Source of the DNA: Aquimarina sp. Aq78
Lineage (GTDB): Bacteria; Bacteroidota; Bacteroidia; Flavobacteriales; Flavobacteriaceae
Length of the DNA stretch: 64,000 bases
Reading direction: 5' to 3'
NCBI RefSeq assembly: GCF_900299525.1
Contig: NZ_OMKA01000026.1
Span: forward strand, 248,001-312,000
This document shows positions 12,940 to 28,457 of the stretch, one piece after another. A program made the position numbers and the translations under genes. Position 1 is the stretch's first letter; every line of letters begins with the position of its first letter. Below the pieces are notes generated by a model. That model searched no databases, was not told the origin of the DNA, and worked only from the letters and a program-made list of their open reading frames with translations.

Positions 12940-14643
12940 ATGAAAATAAACCCATACAATATTATTTTGCTTATAGGGTGTCTGGGCATTGTAGTTTTTG
13001 CAGTCCTTAAATTATGCTGTTGCAGAAAAAAAGAAAAGACATTTAGGTTTTTTTATTATTTCTTGATTACTGCCAACTTGGTAATTATTCAAATACTACT
13101 AATAGATTTTAGAATTACAAAATTATATCCCTGGATTCTTATACTGTATACTCCATTCGAATTTTTATCTCCCGTTTTTTTTACAGCATTTACGTGCTAC
13201 TACCTTGAAAAAGAAGAAATATATAATAGATATCGATACTATCTTTTGATTCCGTTTACGGTATTTTTTGTTGTATATTCATTAATAAAGATTAATATTC
13301 TCATAGATTATTCTATTTTTTCAAAAAGTACAGTTTCCTTTCTTCTTAATGAAATAGATGAAAATTTTACTGTTATTTTTTGTTTTTTACTTTCGATATG
13401 GAATTATCGTATAATACAGAAATATGAGAATTCTTTGGGAAGATTATCTTTTGTTTATGTTAGGAAAAAAACAAAATGGATAAAGAATATTTTTGTTGTA
13501 CTAGTGATCCTATCGGTATTGTGGATGCTTACTATTACTTTGTTTTTTATTAAAGAAGAAATAACTGGTCATTCTGCATATTACCCGATTTGGATGTTAT
13601 ACATGATATTTTGTTATGTTTTTCTGTTTTTGGGGATGAAACATTTAAAGAAAGTATCTGGTAGCGTTAATAATTTAGAAGATCCAATACAGAAAAAGAT
13701 TACTAATTTTCAGCTATCGGGACTAGGTCATATTTTCTCAGAAAGAGAACTTCAATTAGTACACTCTAATCCCATATCTATTACGGGGATATTAAGTTAT
13801 TTTGCCACTTCTTTGTTTGATAAAAATAAGAGAGATGATGTTTTATCAGATATTGCAGAGAATTGTATTTCTCAATTACAACTACAGGAATGCAGTATCT
13901 ATATGATATGTAAAGAAAATAAAATATTAATTCCTAAAGCAACATACAGTAACAAGAACAGTTGTGAAATCAAAAAAAGAAAAAAACAAACACCTATCCC
14001 AATTGGAGAAGGAATCTTAGGTAAAGTAGTGCGGTTGGGGAAATATCAATGTATAGAAAATTTAAATGTAATTATTGGTGATAAGAAGAAGGATATAGCA
14101 AGAAAATCAAAGCTTTCTGTTCCTATATTTGTAAGAGAGAAAGTGGTAGGAGTTTTAGATGCCGAACATGACGGGAAAGCATATTTTAAATCACATCATA
14201 TCGCATTATTTTTATTGATAGCTAAATTAACAGAAATAAAACTTTCCCAAATCAATACCAGTACCAATACGGTAGTACTTAGCAATATTACAAATGATAA
14301 TGCCTATTTTAAAGAGCTGGATTTTTTAATGAAAGAAGAAAAAATTTATGTCGATCCTAATTTAGGTTTAGAAAATATTTCAAAAAGACTACAAATAAGC
14401 AGTAACTATCTATCTCAATTGATTAATAAACTAGGAGGCTGCAATTTTTCTGATTATATAAATAGCTATAGAGTCGAGGAAGTAAAATCCAAACTAAATG
14501 ATCCTGATTATGATAACTATACCGTACTTGGCATTGCTATGGAATGTGGATTTAATTCAAAGTCACCTTTTTATTCTGCTTTTAAAAAACACACAGGAGT
14601 CTCTCCCAAAGAATATAGACAGCAGCAACAAATTATGTCCTGA
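12940..14643 (+). CDS. Seven-TM, GAF, AraC-type membrane regulator
   Basis: This 567-residue protein joins three parts. About seven hydrophobic helices fill residues 5-240, with a Cys-rich patch (LKLCCCRKK) after the first. A GAF domain follows at about 275-430 (GILSYFATSLF, PIPIGEGILGKVVRLG, LSVPIFVREKVVGVLDAEH). A C-terminal AraC double HTH occupies about 455-560 (LENISKRLQISSNYLSQLIN; GIAMECGFNSKSPFYSAFKK; GVSPKEYR). It is probably an inner-membrane sensor whose cytosolic end binds DNA. The GAF and AraC parts are clearly paralogous to the protein at 19174-20454, but the membrane part differs. Directly downstream lies one of four copies of the 33-bp dyad promoter, so it may control the neighbouring lipoproteins (inference). 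Confidence 0.82.
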   Translation: MKINPYNIILLIGCLGIVVFAVLKLCCCRKKEKTFRFFYYFLITANLVIIQILLIDFRITKLYPWILILYTPFEFLSPVFFTAFTCYYLEKEEIYNRYRYYLLIPFTVFFVVYSLIKINILIDYSIFSKSTVSFLLNEIDENFTVIFCFLLSIWNYRIIQKYENSLGRLSFVYVRKKTKWIKNIFVVLVILSVLWMLTITLFFIKEEITGHSAYYPIWMLYMIFCYVFLFLGMKHLKKVSGSVNNLEDPIQKKITNFQLSGLGHIFSERELQLVHSNPISITGILSYFATSLFDKNKRDDVLSDIAENCISQLQLQECSIYMICKENKILIPKATYSNKNSCEIKKRKKQTPIPIGEGILGKVVRLGKYQCIENLNVIIGDKKKDIARKSKLSVPIFVREKVVGVLDAEHDGKAYFKSHHIALFLLIAKLTEIKLSQINTSTNTVVLSNITNDNAYFKELDFLMKEEKIYVDPNLGLENISKRLQISSNYLSQLINKLGGCNFSDYINSYRVEEVKSKLNDPDYDNYTVLGIAMECGFNSKSPFYSAFKKHTGVSPKEYRQQQQIMS

Positions 14644-14698
14644 TTTCTTGAAATTCAAACTTTAAGGACACTTATATTTTTTAATGTTATTAGAATTG
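14637..14698 (+). promoter_or_regulatory. 33-bp dyad plus -7 box, copy 1 (lipoprotein gene 14803)
   Basis: The dyad at 14637-14669 has GTCC/GGAC ends and the core TTGAAATTCAA. A 21-bp gap leads to TAGAATTG at 14691-14698, one mismatch from the Bacteroidota -7 consensus TAnnTTTG. The left end overlaps the stop of the upstream regulator gene. This copy is the most divergent of four. Confidence 0.75.
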
Positions 14699-14701
14699 CA
14701 T

Positions 14702-14779
14702 CTCACTTGTATTTTATACAGTTGAGTTTGTGTATGAGGTGAGTAGGTTTTAAACCCTTAAAATATACTCACCTTTTTC
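14702..14779 (+). ncRNA. Leader with alternative hairpins and terminator-like stem, or short sRNA
   Basis: Just after the predicted start site, CTCAC (14702-14706) can pair with GTGAG (14739-14743), enclosing a loop that contains GTTGAGTTTGTGT. A second stem, AGGTGAGTA (14737-14745) with TACTCACCT (14766-14774), ends in a T-run. The two stems are mutually exclusive, as in an attenuator. The loop sequence recurs in the two elements at 53301 and 53688, which also end in a terminator hairpin. Whether this is a 5' leader or a separate small RNA cannot be told from sequence. Confidence 0.45.
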
Positions 14780-14802
14780 AAATATTTAAAAAACTAACTA
14801 AC

Positions 14803-15606
14803 ATGAAAAATCTTATCCCTACAAGAATTGGATTAATCGAATACATTTCGCTTTTAGCATTTGCAACATTCTCTTGCGAGAGAGTTAATAATGAAACACT
14901 ACAGGAAAATAAAAATGAAGAATTAGCGGTCTTTACATTCTCTAATGGCAATACGCTACAATTAATTGAAAGTGACGAAGAAGGAGACCCGGTTATCCTG
15001 GCTATCGAATCTGGGTCAAATAAAAATATAGAATTCATAGACTTTGACTCTAATTCTATATTAGATATATACCTCAAATTAACCCCTGATCATTCTCCTC
15101 TACCTAAAATAATTGCGGATATCTCAAAAGACAAAGACCATTTACATCATAGAAGTGTTATTAAGGATTTTGATACCGCACTAAAATTTAGTGTTGAAAA
15201 AATACCAGCAACACTTAAAATGAAGAATAATAATAAAGGAGATTTTTGTGATGATATCCCTGAAAGTTATAATTATTGTTATAACCGAGAAAAAAGTAAA
15301 GTGTCTAATATTACATCGAGTAGCCGATGTAAAGTAATGGAAAATTATACCTCTGTGTTTAAAGAATCATACAATGAAGGGAAGTATATGGAAGTAAGAC
15401 ATAGATATAGAAAAGCATCTGGAGGATGGGTGACACACACCAAAGGGAAATACAAGGTATATCCTGGAAGGTGGAAACGATTAGCAATACCGGGAAAAAT
15501 GAAAAGATACAGAAGAGCAGCACGTAGTGGGGTTAATGAATCAACTGGTCTTGGAACAGAATATTTGTATTGGAAAGGGTATACTGATTTTCGAAATTCG
15601 AAATAA
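14803..15606 (+). CDS. Unknown lipoprotein, tandem paralogue A
   Basis: Predicted 267-residue lipoprotein whose lipobox Cys is in LLAFATFSCER (residue 25). I do not recognise the family. It shares with the gene at 15864 an N-terminal block (AVFTFSNGN, LQLIESDEEGDPVI, AIESGS, FIDFDSNS) and a basic C-terminal block (RYRKASGGW, KRYR, YWKGYTDFRN). A GFCDD/GDFCDD-type Cys motif lies between them. The C-terminal 90 residues are rich in Lys, Arg, Tyr and Trp, which would suit binding an anionic polymer or lectin-like contact (inference). Its promoter carries dyad copy 1 and its leader carries a terminator-like hairpin, so expression is probably regulated. It has a conventional ATG after an A-rich leader. 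Confidence 0.7.
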   Translation: MKNLIPTRIGLIEYISLLAFATFSCERVNNETLQENKNEELAVFTFSNGNTLQLIESDEEGDPVILAIESGSNKNIEFIDFDSNSILDIYLKLTPDHSPLPKIIADISKDKDHLHHRSVIKDFDTALKFSVEKIPATLKMKNNNKGDFCDDIPESYNYCYNREKSKVSNITSSSRCKVMENYTSVFKESYNEGKYMEVRHRYRKASGGWVTHTKGKYKVYPGRWKRLAIPGKMKRYRRAARSGVNESTGLGTEYLYWKGYTDFRNSK

Positions 15607-15687
15607 AATTAATAGTACAGAAATAATGATTTTATAATGGAATTTTATTAGCTAGTAATTCAGCAGTTTGAAATGATGGCTTGGTAG

Positions 15688-15727
15688 GCAGCAGGTAGAA
15701 ACTTTTGATTCTCTTGCTGCTTTTTTA
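15688..15727 (+). terminator. Terminator after paralogue A
   Basis: GCAGCA and TGCTGC arms flank a loop and are followed by six T residues, some 80 bp after the stop codon of the 14803 gene. Confidence 0.65.
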
Positions 15728-15800
15728 TCAAAATGGAGATGAATCCAAACCCTCAAAGCACATTTAATTTTCTAAAACATTCTTGCAAGAGTAGACATAA

Positions 15801-15834
15801 ACCCGGGTGTCTTAAAAAGGTTCGGGTAATTTTT
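15801..15834 (+). repeat. Inverted repeat upstream of paralogue B
   Basis: ACCCG and CGGGT flank a 17-base spacer and are followed by a short T-run, 30 bp upstream of the 15864 start codon. It could be an attenuator-like hairpin. Paralogue B lacks the 33-bp dyad found before paralogue A. Confidence 0.35.
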
Positions 15835-15863
15835 ATCACATAAATCTTTAGTATACAAATCTT

Positions 15864-16649
15864 ATGAAACGTATTAAATTCATACAAATTTTATGTATCC
15901 TCTGCGTCTTACTCTTTATTACCTCCTGCGAGAATGAAGCAGAACCTACACAGCCAACTCTAGAGGAAACTAATAGTGGAGAATTTGCTGTTTTTACCTT
16001 TGCCAATGGCAACAAACTACAACTTATCGAAAGTGACGAAGAGGGAGATCCTGTTATCATTGCGATAGAATCAGGATCTGAACATAATAAAATGTTTATT
16101 GATTTTGACACGCATTCTATGTTGGATGTATATCTGGCACTTACTTCAGAAAAAATTCCTGTACCTAAGGTATTGGTAGATATGTCCAAATCTTTTCAAA
16201 ATCAGAAATTATTAGAAAAAAGACAGATAGTACCTACTATGAATATTCCTGCCACTATAGAGATGGAAAAAATTCCTGAATCGTTGTTACAAAAATATCC
16301 GGCTAATCGTGGTTTTTGTGATGATGTAAGTGCAGATCATTGTGAGAAAGGTGAAAATATATTAGAAGATGTTTGGAAATCGGGAAGTAAAAAAAGAAAA
16401 ATCGACGGGTATACTATTCTTCTGTGGGATAGTGGAACCGCAGTACCCCATATGACAGTTAGATTTAAGTATAAAAAAGCAAATGGAAGTTGGAAAGAAA
16501 ATGATAAGGCAACTCATACCGTTAAACGAGGGTATGGAAAAAAGGTTACTTATATCGGAGGAAAAAAAAGATATAGAGGATCATGGAGATTAACAGGTAC
16601 TCCAGGTTGGTATGCTCATTGGCGTGGTTGGACAGATGTTAGAAACTAA
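15864..16649 (+). CDS. Unknown lipoprotein, tandem paralogue B
   Basis: This 261-residue lipoprotein has its lipobox Cys at residue 22 (LLFITSCEN). It is paralogous to the preceding gene: AVFTFANGN, LQLIESDEEGDPVI, AIESGS, FIDFDTHS, then GFCDD and a basic C-terminus (FKYKKANGSW, GGKKRYRG, HWRGWTDVRN). The middle regions (residues about 105-160) have diverged, which suggests an old duplication with conserved ends. The family is not recognised. It ends at a strong terminator shared with the convergent RiPP precursor gene. Unlike paralogue A it has no 33-bp dyad, so the two copies may be expressed under different conditions. Confidence 0.7.
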   Translation: MKRIKFIQILCILCVLLFITSCENEAEPTQPTLEETNSGEFAVFTFANGNKLQLIESDEEGDPVIIAIESGSEHNKMFIDFDTHSMLDVYLALTSEKIPVPKVLVDMSKSFQNQKLLEKRQIVPTMNIPATIEMEKIPESLLQKYPANRGFCDDVSADHCEKGENILEDVWKSGSKKRKIDGYTILLWDSGTAVPHMTVRFKYKKANGSWKENDKATHTVKRGYGKKVTYIGGKKRYRGSWRLTGTPGWYAHWRGWTDVRN

Positions 16650-16732
16650 AAAATGATAAATCGAATATGTACATCTCTGTAATTATGCTTAAAGCAAGTC
16701 ACTTAATATATCGTATTTGATTAAGTCCATAG

Positions 16733-16780
16733 AAAAACCCTCAAACTATGTTTTCCCATTTTTATAGTTTGAGGGTTTTT
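16733..16780. terminator. Bidirectional terminator
   Basis: AAAAACCCTCAAACTAT pairs over 17 bp with ATAGTTTGAGGGTTTTT across a 14-base loop. It lies between the convergent 15864 lipoprotein gene and 16820 precursor gene. Confidence 0.9.
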
Positions 16781-16819
16781 ATTCTTTATTAGTATTCTAC
16801 AATAATTATATAACCTTGT

Positions 16820-17005
16820 TTAACCCCATCCAAAATTAGTTGGGCAAGTAATAATGGTAAATATCGGTTTATAGAATATAGGACATCTTGTATGTACCTG
16901 ACTTTTTATTGGACCTTCATTTCCACCTTGGATAGATGACAAATTTTCCAATTTTGTAACATTCAATTTTTTGAGATGTAATTTTTTCCCCTTTGCTTTT
17001 TTCAT
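16820..17005 (-). CDS. RiPP precursor peptide with Gly-Gly leader (class I lanthipeptide-like)
   Basis: This 61-residue peptide has a basic, Leu-rich leader (KKLHLKKLNVTKLENLSSIQ) ending in Gly27-Gly28. That is the layout of the class I lanthipeptide-type precursors of Bacteroidota, whose leaders are cut after GG by C39 peptidase-ABC exporters. The predicted 33-residue core holds Cys41 and Cys54, several Thr (39, 50, 53, 56), one Ser (35), Tyr and Trp. Cys plus Thr/Ser would permit thioether rings. No LanB/LanC, C39 transporter or other maturation gene is in the window, so modification is unproven and the enzymes would have to act from elsewhere. The start is a single ATG, and the gene is monocistronic. 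Confidence 0.65.
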   Translation of the reverse strand: MKKAKGKKLHLKKLNVTKLENLSSIQGGNEGPIKSQVHTRCPIFYKPIFTIITCPTNFGWG

Positions 17006-17073
17006 AATTTTTAGTTATTAAAGATTATTATACATATATCTTTTCTACCAGCACCAGAAGATTACCGATACAA

Positions 17074-17110
17074 TTTTTTATCAAAAATCACTCAAAGTGA
17101 CGATAAAAAA
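17074..17110. repeat. Nested inverted repeat upstream of the RiPP precursor
   Basis: Outer arms TTTTTTATC and GATAAAAAA enclose inner arms TCACT and AGTGA around CAA. It lies 70 bp upstream of the precursor start and could be an operator for it, or an AT-rich terminator of the regulator gene at 17238. Confidence 0.45.
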
Positions 17111-17212
17111 TGCCTAACAGTATAAAAGGATATGTAAGTTACTTTTTTTGAATTCCAAGAATAAATATAGGATAAAAAATAGCATAAACCCTATAAATGA
17201 GGAAGTTATTAG

Positions 17213-17233
17213 TCGAAATTCACGGAATTTCGA
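17213..17233. repeat. 21-bp inverted repeat at the end of the TPR-AraC gene
   Basis: TCGAAATTC and GAATTTCGA, perfect 9-bp arms around ACG, sit 4 bp past the stop of the minus-strand regulator gene. It lacks a T-run, so it may be an RNA-stability hairpin and not a classic terminator. Confidence 0.45.
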
Positions 17234-17237
17234 TAAA

Positions 17238-18971
17238 TTACATAGTGTCTAAGTCATATAGCTTCTTAATAAAATAAGAAGTTTTGATACCGGTACTCTT
17301 TTTAAAGGCAGATGAAAAAGATTCAGCTGTATTAAACCCCATTTCTTCTGCAATACCCTGTATGGTATAGTGTTTAAGAGTTTTGTTTTCTTTTAACTGG
17401 ATTACTGCATGTGCAACCCTAAGATCATTGATGTAATTAGTGAAATTCTTTTGCTTATGATGATTAATCACTTTTGATAAATACTTTGTATTAGTTTTAA
17501 TGTCTTTAGCCAAAGAGGTAGTACTAATATTCTTTTTAAGGTAATGATGATTTTGTTCAAATAGGACCAGCTTATTAAGAATTTCTTCAACGATATCATC
17601 AGCCACTCCAATATCCCTATCACTTTGTTGTTTTTCTCGTGTAGTTTGGGTTAACTTGTCTTCAGAAATCAGTTGTTCAAATTTTTTCTGATAGGTTTTT
17701 CTCTTTTGGTATTGACGATATAAAAAAGCAATGGCAACAAGAGTAAGTAATGAGAGAAAAATCACTAAAAGATTTAGGTTTTTATTATTACCTTTTAATT
17801 CATTGATTAGGATTTCTTTTTCTTTTAATAATAAGGGAGTATCAAACTCTTTGAATAAGCGCGAGGATACAAAAGAAGCTTCCTGGTTAATGACACTATC
17901 AAATTTCAGCAATTTGTTAATATATTCGAGTTGTTTTTCCTTTTTATGATTCGTCTTATAAAAGTTTATCATAAACTCATAGCTTTCTCGAATCTCCAAG
18001 GGAGTAATTTTTTCTTTTTGCAGGATAGAATCTACAGTAAGAAAGTGTTTTTTAGCTCCAATGGCGTCTTGTTTTAGAAGCTGTAGTTTTCCTAGATAAA
18101 ACTCACCCAAAATATATGCTTTTCTGTTTTCAGATCGGGTTTTATCAAGGATAGGTATACCCTTGGCAATGCTATCATAAGCGTTCTTAAATTTTTCTTT
18201 ATAGAAGAGATTGATACCCTCATTAATGATAACCCTGCCATAAAACCTATTATAATTATGCTCCGATTTATAGGCTCGTTTAATTGCTTCATAATGATAC
18301 ACTGAAGCAGAATCCAGGAGATTATTATAGCGGTAAGATTCTGCTAGAGGGATTATAGAATTTAAATATCGAACCGTATCAGTAGCATGTTTTGTAATAA
18401 TATGAGCAAAGTTTTCTTTAAAAAGAGGTAAGGCTTCCTGATGTTTTCCTATTTCGGTTTTAATACAAGCAATATTATGTTCGGTAATAGAAATATATTC
18501 GGTACTATTTACTTTTTCGGCTAATGCCAATGCTTGTAAATAATTATCTAATGCTAAAGTATACTGACCATTATTTAAATAGTACCCTCCTTTAAAAGAA
18601 TATCCTTTAATTGTGATATTACCTTCTAAATTTTTACTTAAAGCTATAGAGCGATCAATTAATCTTATTTTTTCCGATTCTTCTTCAGCATAATAAAACA
18701 ACCAACTATAAGCTTTAGCCATTTCTAGAGTATTGTTTTCTGAAATGGCTTTCTTTAAATAAGTATATAAATAAGTTTTTGAAATTAGAGTATCTCTATA
18801 GGTTTTCATGTGGATTTTATAGATACTATCATAATCCAAGGTTTTTAAAGAATCGGGAATTACAAAATCTTCTTCCTGCCCCGTAGTAATTTGTATACAG
18901 CACAGTAAAAAAACAATAGCTATCCTTTTATAAAAGGAAGTGAAAAAGAGATATGTCTTTTTTGTGTTCAA
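17238..18971 (-). CDS. TPR-AraC membrane-anchored transcriptional regulator
   Basis: This 577-residue regulator is of a type common in Flavobacteria. An exported N-terminus (signal-like helix about 13-31) is followed by tetratricopeptide repeats (about 75-370; for example YLNNGQYTLALDNYLQALAL and IKTEIGKHQEALPLFKENF). A single TM helix (about 397-417, LLVIFLSLLTLVAIAFLYRQY) leads to a cytosolic AraC double HTH (about 470-570; TKYLSKVINHH, GIAEEMGFNTAESFSSAFKK, TSYFIKKL). The periplasmic TPRs presumably sense a ligand or protein partner and signal to the DNA-binding end (inference). It is divergent from the two-TM GAF-AraC gene; the RiPP precursor lies downstream. Confidence 0.85.
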   Translation of the reverse strand: MNTKKTYLFFTSFYKRIAIVFLLCCIQITTGQEEDFVIPDSLKTLDYDSIYKIHMKTYRDTLISKTYLYTYLKKAISENNTLEMAKAYSWLFYYAEEESEKIRLIDRSIALSKNLEGNITIKGYSFKGGYYLNNGQYTLALDNYLQALALAEKVNSTEYISITEHNIACIKTEIGKHQEALPLFKENFAHIITKHATDTVRYLNSIIPLAESYRYNNLLDSASVYHYEAIKRAYKSEHNYNRFYGRVIINEGINLFYKEKFKNAYDSIAKGIPILDKTRSENRKAYILGEFYLGKLQLLKQDAIGAKKHFLTVDSILQKEKITPLEIRESYEFMINFYKTNHKKEKQLEYINKLLKFDSVINQEASFVSSRLFKEFDTPLLLKEKEILINELKGNNKNLNLLVIFLSLLTLVAIAFLYRQYQKRKTYQKKFEQLISEDKLTQTTREKQQSDRDIGVADDIVEEILNKLVLFEQNHHYLKKNISTTSLAKDIKTNTKYLSKVINHHKQKNFTNYINDLRVAHAVIQLKENKTLKHYTIQGIAEEMGFNTAESFSSAFKKSTGIKTSYFIKKLYDLDTM

Positions 18972-19116
18972 GGGGTTTTATCGATTTATCTAGCTATAAA
19001 GATACTATTTTCTGGTTTCTATAAGATTTCAAAACAAACCCATTTTAAATACCTGAAAATAAGTATGTTGTTTGATAGAATCAATATCGAAATTCTCAGA
19101 ATATCGAGATATTTTG

Positions 19117-19149
19117 TTTGTTTTCAAAGGTATTGTCAGTATATATTTG
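19117..19149 (+). promoter_or_regulatory. Promoter of the two-TM GAF-AraC gene
   Basis: TATATTTG at 19142-19149 matches the -7 box TAnnTTTG exactly, and a TTTG at 19117-19120 could be the -33 element (21-bp spacer). The start codon is 24 bp downstream of the box, which supports ATG 19174. Confidence 0.65.
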
Positions 19150-19173
19150 AATTGGACAAAAAAATCAATCATC

Positions 19174-20454
19174 ATGAATATCAAGAAATACATAGGTGAT
19201 AAAATAGTAATAAAGGTTTCAGCAATTTTGGTATGTGGGATTGTATTTCTCTTTATGGTCATGTGCTATAAGATGCTAAGTACAGATGTTTTCTTATTTA
19301 ATACAAGACATATGTTTGCAATGCTGATTGTATTAAATATAGTATTACTTATCACCATATTTACTTTTTTCTTTTCGAGTATAGTTCTAAAGAACTTTTC
19401 TAATTTCTATTTTAGGATACCTCTTTTTTTTAATCAAGTATTTGCCGTAGCATATAATGGTGTGTTTACTACTACAAAACAGCTAACACCAGAGTTTGAT
19501 AAAGTGAAGAGTAAAAAAGATTTGATACGAAGTTCAATTTCAAATTTTAGCACACATGGGCTGGATCAGATTTTTTCTGAAAAAGAACATATAAAACATC
19601 AAAACACATCAAATGAAACAATAGGAATACTAAGTTATTTTGCATCATCACTATTTGAAAAAAATAAGCTTGAAGATGTTTTATGGGATATCGTAGAGAA
19701 TTGCATTTCGCAACTCGAACTAGAGGATTGTGTGATCTATATGCTGGATACCCAAAATAGGGTTTTGATACAAAAAGCAGCATTTGGTCATAAAAATAAC
19801 GGAGAAAGAAAAGTTGTAAGCCCTATCCAAATTCCATTAGGAGAAGGTATTGTTGGTAGAGTAGCACAATCAGGAACATTTGAATATGTTCCTGATGTGA
19901 CCAAAGATTCTGGATATATCATAGATGATGATCGTAGAATGTCTGAATTGTCTGTTCCTATTTTTATTGGTGATGAGGTAGTAGGTGTTCTGGATTCTGA
20001 GCATTCTCAAAAAGATTTTTTTAGCAATAATCATGTGTTTTTGTTTCAGTTAATTGCCAGGCTAACTGGAAAAAAACTAAAACAAATTCACATAAAAAAC
20101 GAATCCCACATTACAAATGATAATGTGTATTTTAAAGAACTTGATTTTTTGATGAAAGAAGCCAAAATATACCGAGATCCAAATCTGGGATTAGACAGTA
20201 TGGCCAAAAAACTAAATATAAGCGGTAATTACCTATCACAATTGGTTAATAAATTAAGTGGATATAATTTTACCGATTATGTAAATAGATATAGAATAAA
20301 GGATGCAAAATTTAAATTAAGAAACCCTAATTTTATAAACTACACTATTATAGCGATCGCTTTGGAGTCTGGGTTTAATTCGAAATCAACTTTTTACAGT
20401 GCTTTTAAAAAACTAACTGGTATTTCGCCAAAAGAATACAGAAAAATCTCCTAA
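19174..20454 (+). CDS. Two-TM, GAF, AraC-type membrane regulator
   Basis: This 426-residue paralogue of the 12940 regulator has only two TM helices (about 15-38 and 47-72). They are followed by a GAF domain (about 140-300; GILSYFASSLFEKNKLEDVL, PLGEGIVGRVAQSG, ELSVPIFIGDEVVGVLDSEH) and an AraC double HTH (about 315-425; SMAKKLNISGNYLSQLVN, ALESGFNSKSTFYSAFKK, GISPKEYR). The near-identical recognition regions of the two proteins suggest overlapping DNA targets. Dyad copy 2 begins 6 bp after the stop codon, mirroring the first regulator and dyad copy 1. I use the ATG at 19174, after a good promoter; the TTG at 19072 lies upstream of that promoter. Confidence 0.82.
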   Translation: MNIKKYIGDKIVIKVSAILVCGIVFLFMVMCYKMLSTDVFLFNTRHMFAMLIVLNIVLLITIFTFFFSSIVLKNFSNFYFRIPLFFNQVFAVAYNGVFTTTKQLTPEFDKVKSKKDLIRSSISNFSTHGLDQIFSEKEHIKHQNTSNETIGILSYFASSLFEKNKLEDVLWDIVENCISQLELEDCVIYMLDTQNRVLIQKAAFGHKNNGERKVVSPIQIPLGEGIVGRVAQSGTFEYVPDVTKDSGYIIDDDRRMSELSVPIFIGDEVVGVLDSEHSQKDFFSNNHVFLFQLIARLTGKKLKQIHIKNESHITNDNVYFKELDFLMKEAKIYRDPNLGLDSMAKKLNISGNYLSQLVNKLSGYNFTDYVNRYRIKDAKFKLRNPNFINYTIIAIALESGFNSKSTFYSAFKKLTGISPKEYRKIS

Positions 20455-20460
20455 AAAAAA

Positions 20461-20522
20461 GTCCGGATTCTTTGAAATTCAAACTTTCTGGACATTCGTA
20501 CGCTTCTCCCTAATTAATTTTA
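20461..20522 (+). promoter_or_regulatory. 33-bp dyad plus -7 box, copy 2 (propeller lipoprotein)
   Basis: The dyad at 20461-20493 has GTCCGGA and TCTGGAC ends with the core TTTGAAATTCAAA. After 21 bp comes TAATTTTA (20515-20522), one mismatch from TAnnTTTG. Confidence 0.8.
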
Positions 20523-20647
20523 TCATCCTAAGTACTACACAAGTACAAACTAAGTATTTGTTGTTTTTAGCTTAAGCAGTTTGTTGCTCTATAGTAGGCT
20601 AAGAATAAGGATAGATTTTTATAAACAAATCATAAAAACATAAACAA

Positions 20648-22270
20648 ATGAAAAAGAAACAGTTTTTATATCGTTTGATCATCTTTTGCGTGTTGATTGT
20701 AGGATGCAAAAATGATGATGACATAGTTGTACCACCTGTATCAGCCGAGAATCAGGCACCAGGAGATTTTACAATACAAGTTAACCAAATTACCGATAAT
20801 AGTGCACTGCTAGAATGGACTCTGGTAGTTGACCCAGATGATGATGAGGTAACATATGCCGTTTTTTTAGGAGATAATACAATGCAGTCGGATTTACAAA
20901 CCACAGAGTTTTTGTTAGAAGGGCTTAATGCCCAAACCAGCTACATTGGAAAAGTAGTAGCTTCTGATGGAAAAGGAGGAACATCAGAAAGCACATTTAC
21001 CTTTGATACAGAAGGAGGAGCTGTCATTAACGAAGAAGTATCAATAGCATGGGAAAAATCTTATGGAGGTTCTCATATTGACATCGCTAATGCGCTGCAA
21101 TTAACAATAGATGGGGGGTATATTGTGGTTGGTACTGCTAATTCTGATGATGGAGACGTAGGTGGTAATAACGATGCAGATGGGTATATAGGAGGAGACT
21201 ATTGGGTTATTAAATTAAGTAATTCGGGTGAACTAATGTGGGAAACTAACCTGGGAGGCTTTAGTGATGAAGCCGCAAATAGTATACAACAAACATCAGA
21301 TGGCGGATATATAGTTGCAGGAATGACTGATTCTAATGATCAGGACATTAGTGGTGATACTTCTTTTGCCGATTTTTGGATTGTAAAATTAGATGGCTCA
21401 GGAAATTTGGTTTGGGAGACCAATTATGGTGGAAGTGGAAATGAAGAAGCAACAGATATCGAACAAACATCAGATGACGGTTTTATTGTCGCAGGTTTTA
21501 CTAGTTCTTCAAACGGTGATGTAGGAGACAATTATGGAGGTCTGGATTACTGGGTAATAAAGTTAGACTCTTTTGGAGGCTTAGTATGGGAAACAAATCT
21601 TGGAGGTACCGGATTTGATATTGCACAATCGGTTGAACAAACGTTAGATGGAGGTTATATCGTTGGAGGATATTCAGAATCCTCAGACGGTGTTGTAGGA
21701 AGTAACTATGGAGAAAAAGATTTTTGGATTGTAAAATTAGATGTTTTAGGAAATTTGGTTTGGGAAACAAACCTTGGAGGAACACTTGATGATCTGGCAT
21801 ATGATGTTCATCAAACTACTGATCAAGGATATATCGTAGCTGGATATTCTGAATCCTCAGATTTTGATGTAAGTGGTAATAATGGAAAAAAAGATAGTTG
21901 GATCTTAAAATTAGATACTTCGGGAGAACTGGTATGGCAGGTTAACCTTGGTAGTTCAGAGAGTGATGCCGCTCGCTCTGTTCAACAAACGACAGATGGA
22001 GGATATATCTTTGCTGGGAACTCGGGAGCAAGCGACTTTGATGCAAGTACAAATAATGGAGGCTATGCAGATTTCTGGGTGGTAAAACTAAATCCTTTTG
22101 GTGAATTGTTATGGGAAATTAGCTTTGGTGGTCCAGAACCTGATTATGCAAATACGATTCAACAAACCAATAACGGTTACATCGTAGCTGGTTATGTTTA
22201 TGCTCCTGGAGGAGATATTAGTGGTGCCGGTAAAGGTATGTGGGATTACTGGGTCGTAAAACTAGAATAA
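20648..22270 (+). CDS. FN3 plus seven-bladed propeller lipoprotein
   Basis: This 540-residue lipoprotein has its Cys at residue 19-20 in LIVGCKNDDD; the acidic run is a surface-export type signal. A fibronectin type III domain (about 35-125) is followed by seven repeats of about 58 residues. Each runs 'W-E-T-N-x-G-G', then 'I-Q-Q-T-x-D-G-G-Y-I-V-A-G', then an acidic loop (S-x-D-G-D-V), then 'D-x-W-V-V-K-L-D'. Seven such units would close a seven-bladed beta-propeller. This repeat is frequent in secreted proteins of Flavobacteria and its ligand is unknown; the Asp-rich loops may bind Ca2+ (inference). There is no T9SS tag, as expected for a lipoprotein. Dyad copy 2 drives it. Confidence 0.8.
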   Translation: MKKKQFLYRLIIFCVLIVGCKNDDDIVVPPVSAENQAPGDFTIQVNQITDNSALLEWTLVVDPDDDEVTYAVFLGDNTMQSDLQTTEFLLEGLNAQTSYIGKVVASDGKGGTSESTFTFDTEGGAVINEEVSIAWEKSYGGSHIDIANALQLTIDGGYIVVGTANSDDGDVGGNNDADGYIGGDYWVIKLSNSGELMWETNLGGFSDEAANSIQQTSDGGYIVAGMTDSNDQDISGDTSFADFWIVKLDGSGNLVWETNYGGSGNEEATDIEQTSDDGFIVAGFTSSSNGDVGDNYGGLDYWVIKLDSFGGLVWETNLGGTGFDIAQSVEQTLDGGYIVGGYSESSDGVVGSNYGEKDFWIVKLDVLGNLVWETNLGGTLDDLAYDVHQTTDQGYIVAGYSESSDFDVSGNNGKKDSWILKLDTSGELVWQVNLGSSESDAARSVQQTTDGGYIFAGNSGASDFDASTNNGGYADFWVVKLNPFGELLWEISFGGPEPDYANTIQQTNNGYIVAGYVYAPGGDISGAGKGMWDYWVVKLE

Positions 22271-22335
22271 TTCCTGCGATACTATAAAAACAATTTGTAA
22301 TGATTAGGTTTTTTTGTCCATGCTTTTCATTACCT

Positions 22336-22382
22336 CGGATCCTCATTACCTAACCTAACAAAGATAATGGGGATCCGTTTTT
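22336..22382 (+). terminator. Terminator after the propeller lipoprotein gene
   Basis: CGGATCC and GGATCCG arms, extended by a TCATTA/TAATG pairing, are followed by five T residues, some 65 bp after the stop codon. Confidence 0.85.
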
Positions 22383-22411
22383 CTAACCTACAGGTAAACC
22401 CCTTAAAAAAC

Positions 22412-22473
22412 GTCCGAATTCTTTGAAATTCAAACTTTTCGGATATTCTAAATCTCGACCATAATTAGGTTTG
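22412..22473 (+). promoter_or_regulatory. 33-bp dyad plus -7 box, copy 3 (Kelch lipoprotein)
   Basis: GTCCGAA and TTCGGAT arms at 22412-22444 surround TTTGAAATTCAAA. After 21 bp comes a perfect TAGGTTTG at 22466-22473. The 33 bases are identical to copy 4. Confidence 0.88.
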
Positions 22474-22512
22474 TATCCATAACTTTTAGAATAACTATAA
22501 ACACTTAAACGT

Positions 22513-23523
22513 ATGAAAAAAAATTGCTACATAATTTCAGCACTATTGTTTTTGGTCCTGTTATCATGTGATATTGAAGAAACCCAGACAGAAAACTTTG
22601 AAAAGAGTAATGTCAATTCTTTTACGACCAAAGCAATTAGTTTACATCCCAAGAAGGTTCTTAAAGAAACCCCTTTTGGAGGGAGAGCCAATCATACCTC
22701 ACTTGTATTTGACAATAAAATGTGGGTAATAGCGGGTAATGGTCCAGGAATATACTATAACGATGCATGGTATAGTAAAGATGGTACTACCTGGATGGCA
22801 GCTACAAAAAAAGCTTCTTTTTCACTGAGAACAAATCATGCTGCAACTGTTTCTCAAGGTAAAATGTGGATAACAGGTGGTAGGCTTGTTAATGAAATGA
22901 ATGATGTTTGGTTTAGTACAGACGGGAAGACCTGGAAAGAAGCTACAAGCAATGCTTCTTTTTCACCAAGATCAGGACATACGATGGTCGATTTACAAGG
23001 AAGAATGTTTGTAATTGGTGGTCATGAAAATGGAATTGAAAAAGGTGATATTTGGGTAAGTAGTGATGGGTCTAAATGGAATTTAGTATCCAATCTGGCA
23101 CCTTTTGGAGCAAGAAGAGATCATGCCTCTGTAGTGTATGATAATAAGATATGGGTTATTGGAGGCTATGATGCCAATAATAACTTTTTAAACGATGTAT
23201 GGTATTCGCCAAATGGCTTTCAATGGTTTCTCGCTACCCCAGACGCAGATTTTTTACCTAGAAGAGATCATGCAGTAACAGTAGATAAAAAAGGAATGTG
23301 GTTAACTGCCGGAACAAGAAATAACGACTTCGAGTATTTTAATGATATCTGGTATAGTACCAATGGTATAGACTGGAAAAAAACGTTTCTAACTAAAAAG
23401 TTTCAAGAAAGAACGCAGCATACATCTGTGTATTTTAACAAGAAATTATGGATCATTAGTGGATATGCTTTGAACAATGGAAGCCCTGATGACTTTTATC
23501 ACGATATCTGGTCTTTTGAATAA
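22513..23523 (+). CDS. Kelch-repeat (six-bladed propeller) lipoprotein
   Basis: This 336-residue lipoprotein has its lipobox Cys at residue 19 (LLSCDIEE), followed by acidic residues. After a 30-residue linker come six Kelch-like repeats. Each begins with 'F-x-x-R-x-x-H', continues with a strand such as MWVIAGN or IWVIGGY, and ends with 'N-D-V-W-Y-S-x-D-G-x-x-W'. Six blades would close a propeller. Kelch propellers bind proteins or glycans; some are sialate mutarotases or galactose oxidases, but no metal or catalytic residues of those enzymes are evident. The promoter has dyad copy 3, the start codon is 39 bp past the -7 box, and the gene is probably co-regulated with 20648 and 25310. Confidence 0.8.
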   Translation: MKKNCYIISALLFLVLLSCDIEETQTENFEKSNVNSFTTKAISLHPKKVLKETPFGGRANHTSLVFDNKMWVIAGNGPGIYYNDAWYSKDGTTWMAATKKASFSLRTNHAATVSQGKMWITGGRLVNEMNDVWFSTDGKTWKEATSNASFSPRSGHTMVDLQGRMFVIGGHENGIEKGDIWVSSDGSKWNLVSNLAPFGARRDHASVVYDNKIWVIGGYDANNNFLNDVWYSPNGFQWFLATPDADFLPRRDHAVTVDKKGMWLTAGTRNNDFEYFNDIWYSTNGIDWKKTFLTKKFQERTQHTSVYFNKKLWIISGYALNNGSPDDFYHDIWSFE

Positions 23524-23624
23524 TAACAATGATATTTCTGATGCAGGTCACTATTCTAATATCCAATTTTTAAAGCATGGCATGTGTTTACGTTTGTGAT
23601 TACTTAAATAAAAACAATAAATAA

Positions 23625-24230
23625 ATGAAAAAATTAATTCTAATTCTGCTAATAGGTACTGTTCCTATGTTTGGGCAGCAACAAAATAATACGATAAGTG
23701 TAATAGGAGAATGTGATAAAAAAGTTGATATCGAAAAATATATTATTAATGTCGAATTCAAAGAAGTTATGGCAGATGGATATCAAAATATTGAATCCAA
23801 AAGCATATCACAACTCAAAGAGGATTATAAGAACAAATTGAATACTATAGGTGTAGATTTTGAAAAGTTTAAAGAAAATGTTTTGTATAAAATTACCTCT
23901 ACGGGTTATGGAGCGCAGGCTTATTATTTTTATGTTACAAAATCCCTTGATGAAGTAAAAAAAATACATGCTCAAAAAATGAAAGGAGTAACAATCACGT
24001 GGGTAGATGTTATTGCTAAAGAAAAGACCAATGAAGAAATGATAGTATTGAATAAAAAAGCCATCCAGGATGCTAGAGGTAAAGCTACTAGAATTGCAGG
24101 TAGTGTCAATAAAAAAATAGGGGATATACAAAACATAGAAGACACTAATTATAAGCGACAATATTATAATGTGAACAAATCACAAGAACTACAAAAACAT
24201 TACATAACAGTAACATTTGTTTTGGAATAG
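23625..24230 (+). CDS. SIMPL-domain (DUF541) exported protein
   Basis: This 201-residue exported protein has a signal peptide ending near MFGQQ. It carries the SIMPL/DUF541 pattern: an initial strand 'NTISVIGECDKKVD', a long helix with KSISQLKEDYKNKLNTIG, and the C-terminal helix 'KKAIQDARGKATRIAGSVN' followed by 'IGDIQNIED'. SIMPL proteins (E. coli YggE, for example) are periplasmic or surface proteins linked to oxidative stress; their exact biochemical role is not settled. There is no dyad upstream, and the gene ends at a strong terminator. Confidence 0.78.
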   Translation: MKKLILILLIGTVPMFGQQQNNTISVIGECDKKVDIEKYIINVEFKEVMADGYQNIESKSISQLKEDYKNKLNTIGVDFEKFKENVLYKITSTGYGAQAYYFYVTKSLDEVKKIHAQKMKGVTITWVDVIAKEKTNEEMIVLNKKAIQDARGKATRIAGSVNKKIGDIQNIEDTNYKRQYYNVNKSQELQKHYITVTFVLE

Positions 24231-24308
24231 ACTTTTGAGAATCAATTAAAATGATACAGACATCTCTAAAAACTAGATGAAAAATGATTAGCTTTAAGCT
24301 GAAATTAA

Positions 24309-24348
24309 ATAAAAGTGTCAATAATATTAATATTATTGACACTTTTAT
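24309..24348. terminator. Terminator, perfect 40-bp palindrome
   Basis: ATAAAAGTGTCAATAATATT and its exact complement form a 20-bp stem flanked by A- and T-rich ends, about 80 bp after the SIMPL gene. Confidence 0.85.
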
Positions 24349-24460
24349 TTAGTTGTAAATCAAAAAATACAATGAATAATACCGATAGTATATCAAAAAG
24401 AAGGGCGCTATTTAAACGTATAAATAGAAAAGTAAATACGAATTAAATTTAAAAATAGAA

Positions 24461-25081
24461 ATGTATCATATATTGACAAAATCGATAGTAATTTTTGGTT
24501 TTCTTTTTTGTAGTACAGGTTATACACAAAAAAAAGAAACAGATACAAAAATGAATCAACCAATATCTACAGTGGATGATACCCTTAGGGTTGGATACAC
24601 ATATTGGTGGCCACAATCAGGGCCTTTTATTGGTAATTGTGGAGATAAATATGCATTAGTTTTTTTAGGCACTATTCAGCATATTGATAATCCGGTTAAG
24701 AATGATGATCTGCTCTATACGCCTCAAAAAGGAAGTATCAAGATCGATAAGGTGTTAACTTCAAGAGTACTTAAGAAGAATAAGTATGACAAACAAAAAT
24801 TCTTTGTTTCAGATTATTTCTATAAGCAAGATGTAAAACAAGGAGATCGGGTACTGGTTTTTTGCTATGAATACGAAGATAATTATAGTATTCCGGGAGG
24901 AAAGTCGATGTTAAAAATAAAAGGAGATAATGATCCTATTTTACTATCCATTAAAAGATATATTCAGTCTGGTCAAAATGCATTAGAGCTAAAAAAGGAT
25001 GTGACTTTATGGAAAAACTATGGTTTAGAGGCAGAGGTAAAACAGGTTATTGAATGTAGAGAAATGAGAAGTAAGGATTGA
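24461..25081 (+). CDS. Exported protein of unknown function
   Basis: This 206-residue protein has a plausible signal peptide (about residues 1-22, cleavage after GYTQ). I do not recognise the family. The N-terminal third contains YTYWWPQSGPFIGNCGDKYAL. The middle alternates strands and charged turns (VFLGTIQHI, SIKIDKVLTSRVLKK, DYFYKQDVKQGDRVLVFCYEY), which suggests a small beta-barrel of the OB/NTR type. The C-terminus is helical. Three cysteines (two early, one near the end) might pair in the periplasm. It lies between two dyad-controlled genes but has no dyad of its own; a short repeat, CTATTTA/TAAATAG (24408-24427), lies upstream. Confidence 0.6.
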   Translation: MYHILTKSIVIFGFLFCSTGYTQKKETDTKMNQPISTVDDTLRVGYTYWWPQSGPFIGNCGDKYALVFLGTIQHIDNPVKNDDLLYTPQKGSIKIDKVLTSRVLKKNKYDKQKFFVSDYFYKQDVKQGDRVLVFCYEYEDNYSIPGGKSMLKIKGDNDPILLSIKRYIQSGQNALELKKDVTLWKNYGLEAEVKQVIECREMRSKD

Positions 25082-25220
25082 AGAACCTAAAAGTTTTTAC
25101 TACATCAATTGTCATAACAGTATACTTCAGCATAAATATCTAAATTATATAGAAAAAGTATAGTATTTAAAGCACTCAGGTGTTTTCACTCCAAAAACAC
25201 AGTCAAACCCCTTAAAAAAT

Positions 25221-25282
25221 GTCCGAATTCTTTGAAATTCAAACTTTTCGGATAGTACATATTCTTACCCATACTAGGTTTG
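25221..25282 (+). promoter_or_regulatory. 33-bp dyad plus -7 box, copy 4 (collagen-like lipoprotein)
   Basis: GTCCGAA and TTCGGAT arms at 25221-25253 surround TTTGAAATTCAAA. A 21-bp gap leads to TAGGTTTG at 25275-25282. The similarity to copy 3 continues upstream (CCCCTTAAAAAA) and into the leader. Confidence 0.88.
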
Positions 25283-26570: not shown

Positions 26571-28022
26571 ATGCTTCAAAATGAACTTTTTAATAATGTA
26601 ATTCAAGATTTCAATGCTGGATATTGGGAACTATATGATGATCCAGAAAAAGAAGTTTGGTCAAAAAAGTTTTATGATAGTTTAGGATATACAAAAGATG
26701 AATTAGAGTCAAAAATAGATTATTTTTTAGAACACTTGATACACCAGGATGATATTGAGTTATTTAGAGATAATTTTTTTAGCTATCGACGTAATGCTGT
26801 AAATTTTAAGCAACATATAAAAATTCTCGATAAAAAAGGAAATTATAAACTATATAGATGCGCAACTAATGATGAATTACCTGTAAATATAAAATCTAAG
26901 ATTAACCTTATCTTTTTTATTGAAATCAAACTAGAACCTGAGCAGGATATTACAAAAGATAATTTCTACTATAAAGAAACTGCCCAAATGACAGCTACGG
27001 GGAGTTGGTATGTAGATTTTGAGGAAAGGAAAAGTTTCTGGGATTTTGAAACCAGAAGAATTTTAGAATATGCCGATGATTATATTCCTTCTCTTAAGGA
27101 TTCTGCCAACTACTACGCAGAGGATTCGAGGCAACAAGCAGCAGATTTGTTTTTTAATTGTGCGATGGTAGGTACACCTTTTAATACCGAAATAAAGATG
27201 GTAACCGCTAACAATAGAGTGTTTTGGGTACGAGCCATAGGAAAACCGGTATATAATGAAAATAAAGAAATAATTGGGATTAGAGGTGTTTTTCAGGACA
27301 TAGATGAAATCAAAAGAAAAGAATTAAATCTGCAAATGTCAATCGATATTATCGCATCTCAGAACTCTAGACTATTCAATTTTGCTCATATCGTATCCCA
27401 CAATCTTAGGTCGCATACCAGTAATCTGTCTTTATTAGTACAATTGATTGAAGATATAGATAACCCCGAGGAAAAGATTGGATTGATCAAAGAAATTAAA
27501 CAGATATCATATAGTCTAAATACAACCATTGAACACCTAAATGAGATTGTAGCGATACACACAAATAAGGATCAGGAAAAAAAACCTGTCAAATTTCAGG
27601 ATGCTTTTAATTTGGTTACAAGCGGAATCGGACAAATGATTTCTATGAGTAAGACTAAAATTAAGACAGATTTTAGTGAATTAAATACGATTAATTATAT
27701 TTCTGCGTATTTAGAGAGTATCCTGTTAAATTTAATAACAAATGCTATAAAATATAAACATAAGGATAGAGACCCGGTAGTAGAAATCAAAAGCTATTCT
27801 ATAGGTAGTAAAGAGTGTTTAAAAGTCACAGATAATGGTAGCGGAATTGATATGAAACTGTTCAAGGATAAAATATTTGGGATGTATAAAACATTTCATT
27901 ACAATAAGGATGCAGTAGGAATCGGATTGTTTTTAACAAAAAATCAGGTAGAATCATTAGGTGGAAAAATTACTGTAGAGAGCGAAGTGGATAAAGGAAC
28001 AACTTTTATAATTGAATTTTAA
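26571..28022 (+). CDS. Soluble PAS-PAS sensor histidine kinase
   Basis: This 483-residue cytoplasmic kinase lacks TM segments. Two PAS domains (about 10-115, with WELYDDPEKEVWSKKFYDSLGY; about 135-250, with GSWYVDFEERKSFWDFETRR and a PAC-like IIGIRGVFQDIDE) precede the dimerisation helix. His277 in HIVSHNLRSH is the expected phosphorylation site. The ATPase domain has the N box NLITNAIKYKH, the G1 box VTDNGSGID and the G2 box GIGLFLTKNQVESLGG. It should sense an intracellular signal or redox state, and probably passes phosphate to the receiver protein encoded 21 bp downstream. Confidence 0.88.
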   Translation: MLQNELFNNVIQDFNAGYWELYDDPEKEVWSKKFYDSLGYTKDELESKIDYFLEHLIHQDDIELFRDNFFSYRRNAVNFKQHIKILDKKGNYKLYRCATNDELPVNIKSKINLIFFIEIKLEPEQDITKDNFYYKETAQMTATGSWYVDFEERKSFWDFETRRILEYADDYIPSLKDSANYYAEDSRQQAADLFFNCAMVGTPFNTEIKMVTANNRVFWVRAIGKPVYNENKEIIGIRGVFQDIDEIKRKELNLQMSIDIIASQNSRLFNFAHIVSHNLRSHTSNLSLLVQLIEDIDNPEEKIGLIKEIKQISYSLNTTIEHLNEIVAIHTNKDQEKKPVKFQDAFNLVTSGIGQMISMSKTKIKTDFSELNTINYISAYLESILLNLITNAIKYKHKDRDPVVEIKSYSIGSKECLKVTDNGSGIDMKLFKDKIFGMYKTFHYNKDAVGIGLFLTKNQVESLGGKITVESEVDKGTTFIIEF

Positions 28023-28043
28023 AAACAAATAACCCCACAGATC

Positions 28044-28457
28044 ATGAGTCATAAAATAGGATTAGCTTGTATTATTGATGACGACAATATGTATGTAAAT
28101 CTTGTAAAAAGGATTGTAGAAGCAAAAAACCTTTGTAAAAACTTAATGGTATTTCAAAATGGTAAGGATGCTCTTAATTATTTTGAAGCTATTTTGACTA
28201 ATTTAAATAAAAAGACAATTCCCGAAATAATATTTCTTGATTTAAATATGCCAGTAATGGATGGATGGGAATTTTTGGATAACTTCACTAAAATCAAAAA
28301 CAAACTCGGAAAAACAATTACACTATACATTGTAAGCTCCTCAATTAACCCAGTAGATATAGAAAGGGCAAAAAGCATTAATACGGTAAAAGATTATCTT
28401 ATAAAACCAGTTACAATAGAAGATTTAGAGACTATCTTTTTAAAGCAAACTTTATAA
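28044..28457 (+). CDS. Stand-alone response regulator receiver protein
   Basis: This 137-residue CheY-like protein has an acidic pocket in IIDDDNMY (about 11-18), the phosphoacceptor Asp66 in IFLDLNMPVMDGWEF, a Ser/Thr switch in YIVSSS, and the conserved Lys in YLIKPV. It has no output domain, so it must act through protein contacts, as in the Rcp1/CheY style of receivers paired with PAS kinases. It is likely co-transcribed with the kinase gene. The transcript ends at a hairpin that begins at the stop codon. Confidence 0.88.
   Translation: MSHKIGLACIIDDDNMYVNLVKRIVEAKNLCKNLMVFQNGKDALNYFEAILTNLNKKTIPEIIFLDLNMPVMDGWEFLDNFTKIKNKLGKTITLYIVSSSINPVDIERAKSINTVKDYLIKPVTIEDLETIFLKQTL

Follow-up and report, generated by a model that had tools for sequence, protein, structure and literature searches.

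A 33-bp inverted repeat at fixed distance before lipoprotein genes of Aquimarina and some relatives, a candidate operator of GAF-AraC regulators

Activators of the AraC/XylS class II type carry a C-terminal HTH_18 domain, read half-sites composed of two blocks, and occupy a site that abuts the -33/-35 region of the promoter. In flavobacterial sigma-A promoters the -33 consensus is TTTG. To our knowledge, few Flavobacteriaceae transcription factors have known sites. The excerpted part of PMC9723704 places the -7 box of these promoters, TAnnTTTG, at -12 to -5, and that of PMC5080379 describes an export signal on the surface lipoproteins of Bacteroidota.

The system described here appears analogous to the class II-type activators in its HTH_18 domain, two-block half-sites and a site abutting the -33/-35 region, and it has the -7 box in common with the sigma-A promoter as excerpted from PMC9723704. 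In contrast to the class II-type systems, the regulators add a GAF domain, and most Aquimarina copies also have hydrophobic segments at the N-terminus; the site is an inverted repeat with a 1-bp centre that serves mostly lipoprotein targets, and it lies beside or overlaps the regulator's own stop codon. By its NCBIfam name, TIGR04094 (YSIRK-targeted surface antigen regulator) is likewise an AraC regulator beside surface protein genes, but the two regulators studied here fall outside that family, with bit scores of 44.8 and 41.1 (cut-off 200) and matches in the HTH part only. The regulon was absent from the literature searched and is apparently undescribed; the kind of regulator is already known, and it is the operator position and the target set that are unusual.

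The features found in the window, the 64-kb stretch of Aquimarina sp. Aq78 DNA that was analysed, are collected in Table 1. Both regulators contain a C-terminal two-HTH AraC domain above the curated Pfam cut-off. The kinase and receiver domains of an HTCS were not found in either by Pfam, which returned GAF and HTH only. A crude hydropathy rule gave five N-terminal hydrophobic segments in regulator 1; the open reading frame of regulator 2 is listed from a TTG at 19072, and its length is counted from the ATG. A TPR-AraC regulator gene (17238-18971, minus strand) sits between the two GAF-AraC genes.

Table 1. Regulator genes, dyads, -7 boxes and lipoprotein genes in the window
Feature	Position	Strand	Remarks
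Regulator 1, 567 aa	12940..14643	+	N-terminal hydrophobic segments, GAF, C-terminal AraC/HTH_18; Pfam HTH_18 4.4e-19, GAF 1.8e-08
Dyad 1	14637..14669	+	Overlaps the regulator 1 stop codon
-7 box TAGAATTG	14691..14698	+	21 bp past dyad 1
Lipoprotein, 267 aa	14803..15606	+	First gene past dyad 1; without Pfam family
Second lipoprotein, 261 aa	15864..16649	+	Resembles the 267-aa lipoprotein (71% DNA identity over 235 nt); without a dyad of its own
Regulator 2, 426 aa from ATG	19174..20454	+	Two hydrophobic segments (crude rule), GAF, AraC/HTH_18; Pfam HTH_18 1.2e-19, GAF_2 7.4e-12
Dyad 2	20461..20493	+	Begins 8 bp past the regulator 2 stop (20454)
-7 box TAATTTTA	20515..20522	+	21 bp past dyad 2
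Lipoprotein, 540 aa	20648..22270	+	Past dyad 2; FN3 and propeller-like repeats
Dyad 3	22412..22444	+	Consensus match
-7 box TAGGTTTG	22466..22473	+	21 bp past dyad 3
Kelch-repeat lipoprotein, 336 aa	22513..23523	+	Past dyad 3; Pfam 4.8e-44
Dyad 4	25221..25253	+	Consensus match
-7 box TAGGTTTG	25275..25282	+	21 bp past dyad 4
Collagen-like lipoprotein, 218 aa	25310..25966	+	Past dyad 4; conserved C-terminal domain; Pfam Collagen 3.8e-08

The initial annotation had reported four dyads with a common core, each followed at an exact distance by a -7 box, two of them directly after genes for GAF-AraC regulators and all four before lipoproteins of unrelated families. Indeed, every one of these observations was reproduced. 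The core TTTGAAATTCAAA was exact in dyads 2-4 and present as the variant CTTGAAATTCAAA in dyad 1, the box lay exactly 21 bp past the dyad in 4/4 cases, and a lipoprotein-type signal was found in 4/4 downstream open reading frames. A search of the window with a 31-mer consensus, allowing as many as 3 mismatches, returned four matches, the four dyads only, and none in 100 dinucleotide shuffles. The 13-bp core alone, searched with 2 mismatches, was not above chance in the window (21 found, 15.9 expected); the significance of the dyad therefore lies in its outer arms and spacing.

The spacing was then counted over 68 regions (896 kb), most of them picked for holding a site or a regulator, with a site defined as a sequence within 2 mismatches of 17 fixed positions; regions L103 (which contains L201) and L203 (which contains L161) were excluded from the counts. 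This gave 126 sites, and three shuffled sets built from the initial 20 kb of every region (852 of the 896 kb) gave 0, 1 and 0. Fixed spacing, which had been noted for the window, holds elsewhere: with orientation set by sequence alone, TAnnTT stood exactly at +22 of the 31-mer in 107/126 sites, and the next commonest offset was 36, with 24. Eight of the 19 sites lacking TAnnTT at +22 were dyad 1 orthologues, which carry TAGAATTG or a close form there; three others had a box at +21, some had been read in the wrong orientation, and about five were without any box. When the TAGAATTG-like form was allowed and orientation was set by the box, the count became 117/126 sites, or 61/70 clusters of similar spacers. 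Among the 61 representatives, which were picked for TA and TT, the third T of the box had a frequency of 0.79 and the G of 0.66, in agreement with the sigma-A form TAnnTTTG. The letters of the spacer between dyad and box were weakly conserved and its length was kept. Each half-site is about 15 bp long with two conserved blocks, an arrangement that fits an AraC domain with its two HTH motifs.

The fear that the dyad would occur mainly inside genes or at their 3' ends proved unfounded, as an open reading frame of at least 100 aa starts within 480 bp downstream in 110/117 box-bearing sites; the other 7/117 had none within 480 bp in the sequence examined. With the -7 box taken as -12 to -5, following the excerpt of PMC9723704, the dyad spans about -66 to -34 and is centred near -50, so that it lies close to the promoter at a fixed distance and overlaps the upstream promoter element. 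Judged by sequence, the dyads are promoter elements. That the dyad is instead an RNA hairpin or intrinsic terminator closing the regulator gene, as the many dyads that start within 10 bp of a regulator stop might suggest, is hardly credible: positions 7-25, 8-24 and 9-23 were complementary in 16, 26 and 11% of the 61 representatives, a TTTTT run followed within 14 nt of the dyad in 15/117, and many sites do not follow a regulator at all, with the distance to the promoter box fixed. It is the poor pairing at the three middle positions and the rarity of the T run that disfavor a hairpin.

Unlike the flavobacterial sigma-A promoter, none of the 117 box-bearing sites has TTTG at the -33 distance, where an arm of the dyad lies instead. 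This is largely because the dyad's own GGA occupies those positions, and the missing TTTG is therefore not independent proof of activation. Since the site covers the -33 region as placed by the excerpt of PMC9723704, a protein bound there could block polymerase, and the regulators might be repressors or signal-dependent dual regulators whose repression is lifted by the signal. We consider this unlikely: repression would not call for one exact distance to the -7 box, whereas 107/126 sites keep it, and promoters lacking TTTG at -33 (0/117, largely fixed by the letters of the site) would have little strength unaided. Both the strict spacing and the position of the site favor activation over repression.

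The targets were taken as the nearest open reading frame of at least 100 aa within 480 bp of a site, whatever its signal. A lipobox was found in 91/101 distinct targets, compared with 119/604 other open reading frames of the same regions. The ten targets without one were four 430-447-aa proteins of one family and those at L148:2019, L160:5833, L160:9028, L185, L187 and L189; the protein at L160:5833 is by eye a lipoprotein that the lipobox rule missed. Two or more acidic residues at +2 to +6, similar to the export signals in the excerpt of PMC5080379, occurred in 74/91 target lipoproteins and also in 69/119 other lipobox proteins; the surface location of the targets is predicted. Their families include collagen-like, FN3/propeller and Kelch proteins and several without a Pfam match, and past dyads 1-4 of the window they are, in order, a protein without Pfam family, FN3 with propeller-like repeats, Kelch and collagen-like. 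An alignment of 24 collagen-like lipoproteins (that of the window and 23 relatives) showed an invariant TANV and an SxW past the repeats and a C-terminal tail resembling DYxxMSYEEIxxLFNI. The intervening domain was modelled as a beta-sandwich, for which no clear structural relative was found. In regions L157, L161, L172, L173 and L182 the site is symmetric or nearly so, with inner triplets TAG/CTA (TTG/CTA in L182) and boxes TATATTCA, TATATTCG or TACATTAG, and precedes a conserved 159-160-aa lipoprotein; one of these sites belongs to genome G015, which is without the regulator.

The initial annotation had called the regulon local, and this did not stand. Three more palindromic sites with a box at 21 or 22 were found elsewhere in the 5.97-Mb genome of Aquimarina sp. 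Aq78: C16:217542 precedes a 159-aa lipoprotein and C18:324233 a 256-aa lipoprotein 33% identical to the window's first target (BLASTP 4e-31). The third, C35:79509, lies on the minus strand with 2 mismatches; the 482-aa protein that follows it has a start resembling that of secreted proteins, and no lipobox was visible in it. Two further single-strand matches with 2 mismatches in this genome (C9:114777 and C29:750167) were at control level only. The main claim of a regulon is well supported, with a larger extent than had been stated.

A search of related genomes, which the initial annotation had proposed as a check, agreed with a link between site and regulator. Among 66 Aquimarina genomes, 58 of them at least 90% complete, the full site (up to 3 mismatches) occurred in 33 and the reversed-pattern control in none, and the regulator was found at E<=1e-38 in 36, the match in G067 spanning the AraC part only. 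With this strict pattern 32 genomes had both, one had the site only (G015), four the regulator only (G061, G011, G078, G080) and 29 neither. A relaxed pattern allowing 1 mismatch placed the site in 35/66 genomes, with 2 reversed-control matches in all, and gave 33 with both, two with the site only (G015, G085), three with the regulator only (G061, G011, G067) and 28 with neither. For both tables the Fisher p was ~5e-13 uncorrected for kinship, a value that overstates independence because the genomes are related. A pattern scan of named genomes returned 38 stretches, all from Aquimarina except one from Flavivirga algicola (L121) and one from a Bacteroidia bacterium MAG (L123).

The two are also neighbors. 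A box-bearing site lay within 40 bp of the stop of 36/48 regulator open reading frames in a recount that covers the genus only and leaves out two GAF-only frames; a wider listing of 71 regulator rows, 42 near a site, includes duplicate frames and one doubtful site. Where listed, the site mostly starts at -5 to +10 bp relative to the stop. For regulator 1 of the window, and for the regulators of L186, L190, L193 and L195 from other genera, the stop codon is itself the TGA within the TCCTGA arm, so that the candidate operator and the regulator are physically tied. Many genomes have a single GAF-AraC regulator, unlike the window with two. Exceptions to the adjacency were found as well. The regulators of G010, G061, G011, G078 and G080 have no site, or a degenerate one only, beside them, the site of G060 is 179 bp away, and the upstream of two regulator genes is without an adjacent site in eight genomes (G018, G014, G026, G032, G009, G064, G070 and G086); the upstream gene of G065 has a 2-mismatch sequence only, with no box.

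Beyond Aquimarina, the regulator was detected at E<=1e-60 in 17/397 genomes of the family, 15 of them outside the genus and spread over 14 genera. All 15 carried a diverged, box-linked site of the same spacing within ~1.4 kb downstream of the regulator, 10 no more than 39 nt from where the regulator match ends and five at 220-861 nt. The best such site in each genome scored 16-25 of 27 (n=15), whereas none of 141 control windows exceeded 15, on a consensus drawn from most of the sequences it scores; the sites of L188, L192, L193 and L198, outside the set from which it was built, scored 16, 21, 23 and 19. The first open reading frame past the site or regulator encoded a collagen-like lipoprotein in 11/15, a 190-aa lipoprotein in 1/15 and a larger secreted protein in 3/15, of which the one run through Pfam has repeats and a beta-lactamase-fold domain and the other two are alike at the start by eye. 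The regulator, an FN3-type target and a collagen-like target occur together in the Flavivirga algicola record. Hydrophobic segments (at least one by the crude rule) were found in 44/48 regulator frames of the genus regions and 7/15 of those in other genera.

It is quite improbable that a different DNA-binding protein reads the dyad and that the GAF-AraC gene is a linked neighbor only. Such a protein would account for G015, which has a perfect palindrome before a lipoprotein and no regulator at E<=1e-30 or 1e-38, and for G061 and G011, where the regulator is present and the site was not found; G085 combines a single relaxed match with no regulator found, and the window itself also holds the TPR-AraC regulator at 17238-18971. 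Yet the strict site is present in 32/36 genomes with the regulator and missing from 29/30 without it, and the order of regulator then site recurs in 14 other genera. The exceptions make the pairing of proteins with sites less certain; the status of the site as a promoter element is not affected.

Near-identical short repeats before unrelated surface genes could also be recombination or cassette-exchange sites that shuffle lipoprotein genes, and close relatives do differ in their targets, as in G001, where a 265-aa lipoprotein follows the dyad-3 promoter. We hold this to be very improbable because G001 and G002 stay homologous to the window across dyad 3 and its box, with the break past them, at 22487; the spacer, moreover, has weakly conserved letters and a constant length.

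Taken together, the site, its spacing, its co-occurrence with and adjacency to the regulator, and its lipoprotein targets point to a dyad that is probably the operator of a one-component GAF-AraC activator switching on surface lipoproteins. A conserved 33-base site stands at a fixed distance before many unrelated genes for predicted surface proteins in Aquimarina and some relatives, often adjoining the gene of its likely reader. In this model the regulator, usually with membrane segments in Aquimarina, would bind the inverted repeat at about -66 to -34 (numbering from the excerpt of PMC9723704), with two AraC domains, presumably held together as a dimer, each reading one half-site (TCCnnAnnnTTTGA and its mirror image). 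Because the right arm lies at the position of the -33 element, the bound regulator would take the place of the -33 contact and bring sigma-A RNA polymerase to the TAnnTTTG box. The membrane part, the GAF part or both may sense a signal, upon which the set of lipoproteins, with a presumed function at the cell surface, would be switched on together.

More tentatively, the system may be a widespread surface-coat switch of the Flavobacteriaceae, in which one regulator with interchangeable sensor parts bears the operator at the 3' end of its gene, and in several genera one arm contains the stop codon. The operator would have been copied as a fixed promoter socket before unrelated, quickly changing lipoproteins, with the collagen-like proteins as its oldest partner, and the outer face of the cell would change as one unit. 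For predicted surface lipoproteins in this family, the analysis supplies a defined candidate operator, a likely regulator and a list of targets, and for dozens of genomes it predicts promoters and surface proteins that would be co-expressed. It may also offer a simple system for a regulon that recruits unrelated genes through the same promoter module placed before each.

Three other features were seen. By eye, genes for a PAS-type sensor kinase and a response regulator lie 3' of the lipoprotein cluster at 26571-28457 of the window, and a similar kinase frame is the first listed past the GAF-AraC regulator in G078 and G080. Regions L173 and L175 encode a 400-aa protein ~46% identical to the GAF domain of regulator 2, with a match that stops short of the AraC part. 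Most of the dyad-less upstream regulator genes (L093, L095, L097, L098, L099, L151, L155 and L160) share GATATTGTAAAAAAAGTTGTTCTTTTACA or a close form within about 75 nt past the stop, and this stretch is itself an inverted repeat.
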